Assembly: GCF_002915595.1 (NCBI RefSeq)
Contig: NZ_PQGG01000007.1
Coordinates: forward strand, 1 to 64,000
From: Zhongshania marina
GTDB lineage: Bacteria; Pseudomonadota; Gammaproteobacteria; Pseudomonadales; Spongiibacteraceae
DNA length: 64,000 nucleotides
Direction of reading: 5' to 3'
In this document: piece after piece, positions 55,256 through 64,000 of the stretch
How positions within the stretch are numbered: the stretch's first letter is position 1
Layout of the letters: each line of letters begins with the position of its first letter
Notes under the pieces: model-generated
What the model saw: only the letters and a program-made list of their open reading frames with translations
Databases searched by the model: none
Told to the model about the DNA's origin: nothing
Translations under genes and position numbers: made by a program

Positions 55256-56620
55256 CTAAATCGCCTCCAGCGCTTCCGCCAAGGTTTTCACCCCAATTAC
55301 TGTCATTCCCAAGTCACCGCGGGGGGCATTGCCATGGGGCACAATTGCACGTCTAAAACCATGCTTTCGCGCCTCCTGCAAACGCTCCTGTCCGCTGGGC
55401 ACCGGCCGAATTTCGCCCGACAGGCCCACCTCGCCAAAAACCACCAAGTCCTCTGGCAACGGCCGGTCTCGAAAGCTCGACACTATCGCAAACAATAGAG
55501 CCAAATCAGAACCCGTCTCAAGAACTTTGACGCCGCCAACAACATTAACAAATACATCCTGATCGCCAACTTGCAAACCGCCATGACGATGCAGCACAGC
55601 GAGTAACATTGCCAGTCGGTTTTGTTCCAAGCCCACAGCTACCCGGCGTGGATTACCAAAACCAGAGCTATCCACCAAGGCCTGAATCTCTACCAAAAGG
55701 GGTCGCGTCCCCTCCCACACGACCATTACCGTACTGCCAGAAGTGACCACATCGCCGCGATTTAAAAATATTGCCGACGGATTTTTTACTTCCTTTAAAC
55801 CCAGCTCCGTCATCGCAAAGACACCCAGCTCGTTCACCGCGCCAAAGCGATTTTTGCTGCCGCGCAAAGTCCGATAACGACTATCACTGCTACCCTCAAG
55901 CATAATGGAGCAATCAATAATGTGCTCTAAAACCTTCGGCCCCGCCAAGCCACCATCCTTAGTCACATGCCCAACCATTAACAGCACTGTGCCGGTTTCC
56001 TTGGCAAAGCGTGTCAAGGCCGCCGCGCACTCGCGCACCTGAGACACACTACCCGGTGCCGAACTCACGTCGTCGCTATGCAATACCTGTATAGAATCAA
56101 CCACCAACACCTTGGGCTTGATTTTTGCCGCCTGCCCCAAAAGCAATTCAAGGCTGGTTTCAGCACACAATTTCAAAGTGTCTGCCTGCAAACCCAAACG
56201 CTTGGCCCGCATGGCGATCTGCGGCAAAGATTCCTCACCCGTCGCATACAAACATTCACACTGCGCCGCCAATCGACACAGCACCTGAAGTAGCAAGGTA
56301 CTTTTACCCGCTCCAGGGTGACCACCAATCAATATCGCCGATCCCGGTACCAAGCCGCCACCCAGCACACGGTCGAATTCTTCAAAACCGGTAGAGCGCC
56401 TCGGCAGAGCTTCAATGCTGACATTTGCCAACATCTGCACCTCCCCCGCCACAGAGCCCGCATAGCCCTGACGTGCGGGTGTGGCCTTATTTGCACTAGC
56501 CGGCCCCAAACGCAATTCCGACAGGGTATTCCATGCGCCACAGTCCTGACACTGGCCCTGCCATTTATTGTGCTCAGACCCACAATCCACACATACAAAG
56601 GCCGTTTTTTGTTTCGCCAT
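55256..56620 (-). CDS. radA: DNA repair protein RadA
   Basis: RadA (Sms) is a DnaB-like helicase that promotes branch migration during recombination. The zinc finger has C10/C13/C24/C27. Walker A is GGHPGAGKST near residue 98, the RadA-specific KNRFG motif is in RGSKNRFGAVNELG, and a Lon-protease-like domain ends the protein. Length is 454 residues. It is divergent from the DnaT-like gene across 109 bases. Confidence 0.96.
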   Translation of the reverse strand: MAKQKTAFVCVDCGSEHNKWQGQCQDCGAWNTLSELRLGPASANKATPARQGYAGSVAGEVQMLANVSIEALPRRSTGFEEFDRVLGGGLVPGSAILIGGHPGAGKSTLLLQVLCRLAAQCECLYATGEESLPQIAMRAKRLGLQADTLKLCAETSLELLLGQAAKIKPKVLVVDSIQVLHSDDVSSAPGSVSQVRECAAALTRFAKETGTVLLMVGHVTKDGGLAGPKVLEHIIDCSIMLEGSSDSRYRTLRGSKNRFGAVNELGVFAMTELGLKEVKNPSAIFLNRGDVVTSGSTVMVVWEGTRPLLVEIQALVDSSGFGNPRRVAVGLEQNRLAMLLAVLHRHGGLQVGDQDVFVNVVGGVKVLETGSDLALLFAIVSSFRDRPLPEDLVVFGEVGLSGEIRPVPSGQERLQEARKHGFRRAIVPHGNAPRGDLGMTVIGVKTLAEALEAI

Positions 56621-56729: not shown

Positions 56730-57911
56730 ATGTCCACCGCACTTGTAGAACGCCCATTACTGGTCTCTCCCTCCCTCGCCGCTACCCTAGGGCTAGAGGC
56801 CGCACTGCTGTATCAACTACTCGCCGAATGGCTCCCTCTGCTTAATGGACAAAGCAATCAAGGCCAGCACTGGTTTCTTATCGACAGAAATCAGCTCAGC
56901 AAACAATTGCCCTTTTGGGATGCAGACAAAATCAATGAGGTCTTGCGCACACTTCACGACCTAGGCCTCATTATTATCGGCGCAGCGCTGATGAGCAACG
57001 CACAAAATATTCGCATCGCCCTACCGCAATCAGAACCGCCACAAGAGCTGACTCACAACACTCACTATAGCGCCCAAGCTGCGGCCCAAAAGGAGCAGTC
57101 AACACACGCCGCTAAGCCGCTGCTTGGAAAATCCATGACCGCGTCACCGAGTCGCCCCGTGCCTGGCAACAACATTATTCCTGCTGATTGGCTACCCGAC
57201 AAAGCGGGCATTGAATATTTAACACGCTTCAATCATGTGACCCCAGAATTCATTAACGCCGTACTTCCCGAGTTTATCGCCCATTACCGCGAAACCGGCG
57301 AAACCCGCAGCTCCTGGAATAGCGCGTTTAGCCAATACGTCAGTCGCCGCTGGAAAAAACAGCAGTACGCCAAAATAGAGGAGTCTCGCACCCAGCCCAT
57401 TGATGGCAACTGGAAGCCAAGTATTGACGCCTTAGAAATACTTGAGCGCGATCACGTCAGTCGGCATTTCATTGAAGATGCCATCCCAGAATTTATTCTG
57501 TATTGGCGCGAGCGCGGCACCCCCGACAACAACTGGAATTCTCGCTTTATACAGCATATTCGTTTGCAGTGGGCTCGCTATACTAATACCGTCAGCAATG
57601 AGAATAAGATTGCACCTATAAAATCGGACTGGCAACCCAATGACGCAGTATTCGACATTTTTCATATGGCGCGCATTGATCCCGAATTTGCTCGGGCGCA
57701 GGTCCCCGAATTCATATTATTTTGGCAAGACAGCGGCACCGCCCACCGCTCGTGGAATACAAAATTTCTCCAACATGTAAAATACCGTTGGGCACACAGT
57801 CATCAATTGGGACAGAGCAATGCACGACAGCAACAAGCTACTGGAACAAGCCAAGCGGCAACTGGCTTCATCGAAAAACACACCGACCGCAGCTGGGCAG
57901 ACGAACTCTGA
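56730..57911 (+). CDS. Triple-DnaT-domain replication-type protein
   Basis: A 393-residue protein that I read as three tandem DnaT-like single-strand-DNA-binding modules after a winged-helix-like N-terminus (about 1-95). The modules lie at about residues 150-212, 227-285 and 299-357. Each repeats a W-x-P start, PEF[IA]xxxWRExG and a [SN]WNxxFxQxVxxxW end. DnaT in E. coli helps the PriA primosome load DnaB; it has one such domain. A low-complexity Gln/Ala linker (about 100-148) separates the parts. The next gene, lambda-P-like, overlaps its last 92 bases. The family assignment is from visible pattern and needs a profile search. Confidence 0.75.
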   Translation: MSTALVERPLLVSPSLAATLGLEAALLYQLLAEWLPLLNGQSNQGQHWFLIDRNQLSKQLPFWDADKINEVLRTLHDLGLIIIGAALMSNAQNIRIALPQSEPPQELTHNTHYSAQAAAQKEQSTHAAKPLLGKSMTASPSRPVPGNNIIPADWLPDKAGIEYLTRFNHVTPEFINAVLPEFIAHYRETGETRSSWNSAFSQYVSRRWKKQQYAKIEESRTQPIDGNWKPSIDALEILERDHVSRHFIEDAIPEFILYWRERGTPDNNWNSRFIQHIRLQWARYTNTVSNENKIAPIKSDWQPNDAVFDIFHMARIDPEFARAQVPEFILFWQDSGTAHRSWNTKFLQHVKYRWAHSHQLGQSNARQQQATGTSQAATGFIEKHTDRSWADEL

Positions 57912-58488
57912 GCCCACACCAGATAAAAACGCGGTCATCGATGCACTAAATCAAATGTTTGCCGAATTTGAATTGGTTTATCACAACCAATACAACAAGG
58001 CCTTCTCTAATCCAGAAAAACTGAGCTACGCCAAAAAACTGTGGTTCAGCAATCTTCGTCATATTCAGCCTGACGTCATTATTGCCGCCACCCACCGCGC
58101 CATTCGTGAGTCGGAATTTTTGCCCACTATCAAAGGCATTCTCAAATATTGCGAACCCGATAACCACGAACTCGGCCTACCCGACAGCCACAGCGCCTAC
58201 CTAGAAGCCTGCCGCGCTCCGCAACCCAAGGCCGAATACCAGTGGTCGCATCCGGCGGTATACCACGCCGGTCGCGCAAGCGATTGGTTTTACCTGGCCA
58301 GTACGGCCGAACACAGTGCCTATCCGGTGTTTCGCCGCCATTATGACGATATTTGCCAGCGGATAAAAAACGGCGAAACACTGACCATACCGTCCCAAAA
58401 AGCGATACCCAAAACCATCAGTAAGCCGCTTTCACCAGCAGAACAACGCGAGCGCATGCAAAAAATGCGCGATGAATTGAATATTTAA
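57820..58488 (+). CDS. Lambda-P-like replication protein (putative helicase loader)
   Basis: A 222-residue soluble protein resembling phage lambda replication protein P, which captures DnaB and brings it to the origin. Recognisable features are INxxFxxF-type NQMFAEFELVYHNQYNKAF near residue 44, KLWFSNLRHIQPDVIIAATH near 72, and FLPTIKGILKYCE near 99. The ATG at 57820 lies inside the upstream gene, with GGGA seven bases before it. The next ATG (57955) has no site, so a 92-base overlap in a different frame seems real. Pairing with a DnaT-like gene suggests a primosome function. Confidence 0.7.
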   Translation: MHDSNKLLEQAKRQLASSKNTPTAAGQTNSEPTPDKNAVIDALNQMFAEFELVYHNQYNKAFSNPEKLSYAKKLWFSNLRHIQPDVIIAATHRAIRESEFLPTIKGILKYCEPDNHELGLPDSHSAYLEACRAPQPKAEYQWSHPAVYHAGRASDWFYLASTAEHSAYPVFRRHYDDICQRIKNGETLTIPSQKAIPKTISKPLSPAEQRERMQKMRDELNI

Positions 58489-58533: not shown

Positions 58534-58725
58534 GTGGGAAAGGCAATAAACAAATTTAGCGGGATTTTACCGGCACTATATGCTCTAGCCGACGAGGCTA
58601 GCGATAAAAAAAGATCACCGAAAGCAATCGTGCAGGGAGCGCCGTCAAGCGCTACAATAGCGCCCTCGCAAACCAGCCCTGAGCGGCTGACGACACAGAA
58701 CAGGCAAGCTTATGGCAGACAATAA
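58534..58725 (+). CDS. Possible 63-residue small protein upstream of ubiE
   Basis: A GTG-started frame preceded by GGAAGAGAG overlaps the ubiE start by 14 bases. The product is basic and low in secondary-structure signal ([18 protein letters not shown] then a Ser/Thr/Gln-rich tail), and contains AGA and AGG codons that are rare in neighbouring genes. It may be a leader peptide for ubiE or not translated at all. I do not recognise it. Confidence 0.25.
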
Positions 58726-59461
58726 AACCACCCACTTTGGCTATAAAACCGTAGATGCGCAGGACAAGGTCAAAATGGTCGCCGGCGTATTTCATTCAGT
58801 TGCCGCCAAATACGACCTCATGAACGACCTGATGTCGGGTGGTGTTCATCGCCTATGGAAACGCTTTACCATTGAACTGTCTGGGGTGCGCAACGGCAAT
58901 GCAGTGCTCGATATTGCCGGCGGCACCGGCGACCTCGCAGCCAAATTCAGCCGCCTTGTTGGCCCCAGCGGCCGCGTTGTGCTCGCGGACATCAATGACT
59001 CCATGCTCACAGTTGGCCGCGAAAAGCTCACCAATAAGGGCATTGTCGGCAATATTGAATACGTACAAGCCAATGCCGAATGCCTGCCCTTTCCTGACAA
59101 TAGTTTTGACTGCATTACCATCGCCTTCGGACTGCGCAATGTCACCGACAAAGACGCCGCACTGCGCTCGATGAACCGGGTATTGAAACCAGGTGGCCGG
59201 CTCTTAGTCCTAGAATTTTCTAAACCCGTCAACCCCGTTATTGGTAAACTCTACGACCGCTATTCCTTCGACATCCTGCCCAAAATGGGCCAGCTCGTGG
59301 CCAATGACGAAGAAAGCTACCGCTACTTGGCAGAAAGCATTCGCATGCATCCAGACCAAGAAACCCTCAAAGGTATGATGAGCGACGCCGGCTTTGTCGA
59401 TGTGCGCTACCACAATATGACCGCCGGCGTAGTTGCCGTGCACCGAGGTGTAAAGCCGTGA
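58712..59461 (+). CDS. ubiE: Ubiquinone/menaquinone C-methyltransferase
   Basis: UbiE methylates the benzoquinol ring (2-methoxy-6-polyprenyl-1,4-benzoquinol) in ubiquinone synthesis. The SAM motif [15 protein letters not shown] is near residue 65. Family motifs [18 protein letters not shown] and [20 protein letters not shown] follow. Length is 249 residues. The stop overlaps the GTG of ubiJ by four bases. The block ubiE-ubiJ-ubiB is standard. Confidence 0.96.
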
Positions 59462-63937: not shown

Positions 63938-64000
63938 TCAGTACTCGTCTGGTGGCGCCTCGTAACCGAAGGCGAGGTTTTCGAAGCGGGTATGCTTACC
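63938..64000 (-). CDS. dnaB: 3' end of a probable replicative DNA helicase gene (dnaB)
   Basis: The last 63 bases encode, on the minus strand, twenty residues and a TGA stop. The segment GKHTRFENLAFGYE matches the G-[QK]-x-[ST]-RF-[DE]-N ending of DnaB helicases. Only the C-terminus is present, so the call rests on a short motif. The gene converges on tatC. Confidence 0.5.
   Translation of the reverse strand, partial: GKHTRFENLAFGYEAPPDEY

Follow-up and report, generated by a model that had tools for sequence, protein, structure and literature searches.

A chromosomal gene pair of the DopC–DopE kind as a probable stand-in for DciA and DnaC in Zhongshania marina and its lineage

A 'third type' of helicase matchmaker is said to have been proposed by Brezellec et al. 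in 2017. The present analysis concerns two overlapping open reading frames (ORFs) of Zhongshania marina, which lie within a stretch of 64,000 nucleotides (nt) (contig NZ_PQGG01000007.1, positions 1 to 64,000, forward strand), referred to here as the window. The names DopC (for the product of ORF1) and DopE (for that of ORF2), together with their origin from lambda O and lambda P, are those that we take to apply to this pair. In phage lambda, the C-terminal part of the O protein binds lambda P, and lambda P sequesters DnaB. A docking module on DnaB is common to DciA, DnaC and lambda P according to a passage of PMC9912922, which makes the swapping of one loader for another plausible. Passages of PMC5109545 present the Cellvibrionales as an order that lacks DnaC/I as well as DciA, raise the question of whether another loader was acquired, and count DciA among the initiation factors; an excerpt of PMC13326638 lists DopE as a loader family. 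For DnaT, excerpts report a trimer in solution (PMC4132743) and a filament on single-stranded DNA (ssDNA) (PMC13377028). Our literature search, whose coverage left out most subscription journals, returned no experimental paper on DopE.

We consider it probable (roughly 0.87) that the two chromosomal genes form a domesticated system for helicase loading, one of the DopC–DopE kind, and that this system takes the place of DciA and DnaC in its lineage. This reading is carried by the homology, architecture, distribution, gene linkage and conservation of the two genes. The pair looks like a member of an already described kind and not like something peculiar to the source genome, since it resembles the published DopC–DopE. 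A first-pass annotation of the window had suggested a domesticated loading system; both of its ORFs are present, and the order-wide occurrence, purifying selection and a locus common to related genera favor its suggestion, with loading as the presumed function.

The likeness of ORF2 to lambda P, already noticed in that annotation, is borne out by the Pfam model PF06992 (E 7.5e-13, 49 bits vs a curated cut-off of 26) and by phrog_109, a 'P-like helicase loader' (E 4.9e-27). Lambda P chains top the structure ranking of the DopE fold, above unrelated rows, with 16% identity over 177 structurally aligned residues; sequence profiles of DopE against the PDB returned nothing firm. In ORF1, a Pfam profile search recognizes three stretches of DnaT (PF17948, E 4.2e-68), as the tandem modules reported earlier would require, although the family is named DnaT and not 'DnaT_2'. 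The N-terminus, likewise expected to be winged-helix-like, gives a confident winged-helix structure model and weak PHROG matches to a DnaD-like helicase loader (residues 6-85, E 2.7e-6) and to a replication initiation protein (E 1.6e-4). Against the PDB, sequence profiles of DopC yielded weak DnaT matches only (best E 5e-4), and neither DopC nor DopE has a match in NCBIfam.

The distribution of the pair was surveyed in 194 genomes of the order. A survey based on PF06992 found 38 of 194, a lower bound that misses even the source genome (found by another search), and because of this miss the family-built profiles A1 and A2 were adopted, with E up to 1e-3 and with prophage copies counted too. DopE and DopC each match 120/194 genomes, and the two lists are nearly identical (G060 has DopE only, G173 DopC only). 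DciA, by its Pfam model, matches 61/194, and it occurs together with DopE only in G060, where the P-like ORF of 190 amino acids (aa) has a score of prophage strength (E 2e-25). The earlier suggestion was that the pair coexists with or replaces DciA; this near mutual exclusivity supports replacement. In a draw of 274 genomes from the class, 13 match DopE, including the source genome; among the other 12, G367 is strong (E 1e-53) and the remainder are at E 6e-27 or weaker. The G367 match is an open frame of 201 aa (G367:C1:190416-190982) in a 1.2-Mb genome from another family of the class. In the order family f34, three large genomes (G128, G034 and G100) hold ten, five and four DopE-type matches, respectively, mostly of prophage strength; they also have the chromosomal pair at another locus (locus seen for G128).

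Both genes are under purifying selection, as tested against one relative, Zhongshania sp. BJYM1: the ratio of nonsynonymous to synonymous rates (dN/dS; NG86, overlap included) is 0.06 for DopC (dS 1.6) and 0.04 for DopE (dS 1.1), next to 0.01 to 0.04 for radA, ubiE and ubiJ (dS 0.9 to 3.0). A recent prophage remnant that happens to lie between radA and ubiE has to be weighed, as ORF2 has its homologues among the replication genes of phages. However, no adjoining phage gene was seen in the window, as the first-pass annotation had remarked, the same locus recurs in related genera, and a tblastn search with DopC of 50,697 phage records gave no match at E 1e-3. Such a remnant, which would be expected in this strain only, is contradicted by the order-wide distribution (120/194) and the low dN/dS, and we give it almost no credence. 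The lambda P fold of DopE would also suit a decoy or inhibitor of DnaB, active for example in phage defence or replication control, instead of a loader; the linked initiator-like partner, the dnaB linkage and the exclusivity with DciA point to a needed function and make a decoy very improbable.

In the source genome, which is 99.99% complete, DciA (PF05258) has no match, and a search for DnaC by PF01695, made in this genome only, returned two matches, one of them above the cut-off, in ORFs whose sequences look like those of DnaA and Lon. The genome has PriA, and it gives no match for PriB or PriC. It could thus be argued that the pair serves replication restart only, in a PriA-linked primosome, with loading at oriC left to an unknown factor or to DnaA and DnaB alone: DnaT domains are known from restart, and DopC could occupy the DnaT slot where PriB and PriC are unmatched. 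But DopE occurs where DciA, an initiation factor in the description given in PMC5109545 (passage), does not, and the searches of the source genome turned up no further loader; a role confined to restart is therefore unlikely in our judgment. The same genome encodes a second protein with a DnaT domain (G000:C11:108154-108336; L006:1474-2262, minus; 262 aa, one domain), which has PHROG matches of unknown function and possibly belongs to a mobile element.

Public genomes were scanned as well: of 501 pattern matches, 474 encode relatives of DopC. The best 80, picked by score and hence favoring the source architecture, were kept, and many of their contigs are short. The nearest named relative is Zhongshania aliphaticivorans, with 94% identity in ORF1 (the scan may omit the source's own record). 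All 80 DopC proteins have three DnaT domains, and DopE adjoins in 79/80. RadA lies near dopC in 62/80, always on the opposite strand and within 1.5 kb in 56/80 (40/80 pass under a stricter test), and ubiE follows the pair in 19/80. Downstream of dopE, a convergent dnaB is found at 35/79 loci (within 1.5 kb in 21; the nearest directly abuts), and it is present in 30 of the 56 loci whose sequence extends 6.5 kb or more to the right. This linkage supports a function in common between dnaB and the pair. Three DopC loci (L080, L115 and L128) come from metagenome-assembled genomes (MAGs) titled Verrucomicrobiaceae, Klebsiella pneumoniae and Rhodoferax, whose titles may err or whose bins may be mixed. 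Two contigs of the MAG Halioglobus sp. NAT121 (L110 and L132) carry one DopC each, by duplication or through a mixed bin, and no DopE was found in L132.

In this lineage DopC as a rule has three DnaT domains, against one in related lineages and prophages. Among 30 loci from a Pfam search, the DnaT domains in one ORF numbered three in 15, four in 1, two in 2, one in 7 and none in 5. A comparison of 19 hand-picked loci of the order (some Pfam-checked, neighbours named by eye) indicates that its genomes hold several classes of the pair at different genomic places. The radA-locus class has three domains, except that L142 has two and L143, at another site, has four; the class beside a gene read as metG has one domain in a short chain, and further classes elsewhere have a longer N-terminus and one domain. 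In the prophage relative L009, PF04492 is fused to one DnaT domain, with a P gene adjacent. In a DopE tree of 58 hand-picked rows, made by a quick method with long branches flagged, the radA-locus class forms one group (99) with the viral contig L240 inside and the metG-side class next to it (85); classes C, D and E, which have one DnaT domain, fall together (98), with viral rows between them and the radA group. The upstream protein of L240 has 154 aa, no DnaT domain, and LTDCSWATGL within its last 34 residues; this phage may be near the source of the chromosomal genes or may have recaptured the gene. In a tree of the DnaT repeats (64 columns, 13 three-domain proteins from different genera), repeat 3 forms one group (96), repeat 2 lies on one side of a branch (77), and repeat 1 is unresolved. 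As repeat 3 groups across genera, the tripling looks old in this lineage. The trees are compatible with one domestication or with several.

DopC ends in a short conserved word, D-x-S-W, which lies within the last 25 residues in 80/80 of the closest DopC proteins; a looser form of the pattern occurs in 3/946 long ORFs that surround the pair at these loci and in 9% of shuffled tails. Since the tail lies within the overlap with dopE, which is at least 30 nt in 75/79 related loci (start-to-end -88 to -91 in 45/79), the other reading frame could have produced the word. The loci without overlap (4 of 79) retain the tail in 4/4 despite differing DopE starts, though the four are possibly close kin. 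Lambda O has N-T-D-W near its end and PAJU2 O has N-D-T-S-W near its own, and both genes barely overlap P. As a general rule for phage proteins encoded upstream of P, the tail was only partly borne out, as most are without it. Under a second set of selection rules, 24 of 51 viral loci have an upstream ORF, and of these 5/24 have the strict and 9/24 the loose tail; the loose pattern has a shuffle rate of 27% in this set, and 233 control ORFs gave 4 strict and 11 loose tails. A first viral pass, under other selection rules, gave 4/45. Scans with lambda O for diverse O proteins returned near-copies of lambda only and were not used. A term search of PMC6022878 returned no passage on the C-terminal part of lambda O binding lambda P.

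In the mechanism that we propose, DopE, being homologous to lambda P, would attach to the DnaB hexamer and open its ring, and DopC would bring DopE–DnaB to the right DNA, at oriC and/or during restart. DopC may use its winged helix to contact duplex DNA or an initiator. At two bases for each DnaT domain, the figure for E. coli DnaT, its three tandem copies could hold about six bases of ssDNA and act much as a stretch of DnaT filament whose units are already linked; the conserved tail might be a docking peptide for DopE. More tentatively, DopC could be a covalently pre-assembled segment of a DnaT filament joined to a winged-helix DNA reader. It would then do the work of lambda O at the origin and that of DnaT/PriB in restart, a single pair would load DnaB in either pathway, and the D-x-S-W tail would hand over DnaB–DopE.

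Several observations weigh against the pair being a loading system that stands in for DciA and DnaC. Fourteen of the 194 order genomes have neither DopE nor DciA, although the DciA count, which also comes from a Pfam model, may be too low, and this could explain some of the 14. The DciA genome G173 has a weak DopC match (E 1.2e-6). Among the loci with sufficient sequence to the right, 26/56 are without dnaB there. The fold match of DopE has a high root-mean-square deviation, and helical folds can reach a middling Z by chance. The lambda O family PF04492 (Phage_rep_O) has no match in ORF1 up to E 1, and the model does recognize lambda O and two other phage O proteins; the descent of DopC from lambda O hence rests on gene order, tail and literature. 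Of the DnaT residues that contact ssDNA, K133, F135, R146 and S147 are not conserved in the DopC repeats, I150 is W in all 39, and K143 is K/R in 23/39, 38/39 and 36/39 of repeats 1, 2 and 3.

At the locus itself (Table 1), radA lies to the left on the opposite strand, and ubiE, ubiJ, ubiB and tatC lie to the right. The placement between radA and ubiE given by the first-pass annotation agrees with the NCBIfam matches, with the correction that the ORFs overlap out of frame. RadA, ubiE, ubiB, tatC and dnaB exceed their NCBIfam cut-offs, ubiJ matches its own model below the cut-off only, and PBP1, hisI, hisE and tatA/B were identified by eye. The dnaB end, previously placed about 5.4 kb away, is 5450 nt from the end of ORF2.

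Table 1. Features of the dopC–dopE locus, in window coordinates
Feature	Position	Strand	Remarks
radA, left neighbour	55256..56620	-	TIGR00416, E 3e-199
dopC-like gene (ORF1)	56730..57911	+	393 aa; winged helix, three DnaT domains, D-x-S-W tail
Predicted winged-helix domain	56742..57041	+	about residues 5-104
DnaT domain 1	57177..57371	+	profile search of genome, E 4.6e-19
DnaT domain 2	57393..57590	+	profile search of genome, E 2.1e-24
DnaT domain 3	57615..57806	+	profile search of genome
dopE-like gene (ORF2)	57820..58488	+	222 aa; lambda-P-type helicase loader
dopC/dopE overlap	57820..57911	+	92 nt, out of frame; encodes parts of both proteins
DopC C-terminal tail	57873..57908	+	D386-x-S388-W389
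ubiE, right neighbour	58712..59461	+	NF001240, E 4e-139
dnaB 3' end	63938..64000	-	gene extends to contig position 65383; TIGR00665, E 1.4e-170

Cells require a means of placing the replicative helicase on DNA. Many genomes of the order seem to have exchanged the ancestral loader for a phage-derived pair; if this is confirmed, genes of viral origin have assumed a core step of replication. Three features offer concrete starting points for testing how the pair works: its linkage to dnaB, the joining of three DnaT domains in one chain, and the conserved tail.

Compared with the DopC–DopE described before, the source pair is likewise chromosomal, lineage-wide and without DciA (by the order-level test) and DnaC (in its own genome), and it is by description and distribution that the two appear to match. 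DopE shares with lambda P the PF06992 family, the P-like loader PHROG and the nearest solved fold, but differs in being chromosomal, single-copy and conserved, at the 16% identity given above. DopC resembles lambda O in gene order upstream of P and in similar C-terminal words, whereas it has three DnaT domains and not PF04492. Each DopC repeat corresponds to the C-terminal ssDNA-binding domain of E. coli DnaT, which has one such domain and assembles, while DopC strings three together in a single chain, after what appears to be a different N-terminal domain, modelled as a winged helix. DciA, whose presumed role is the same as that of the pair, has an unrelated fold.
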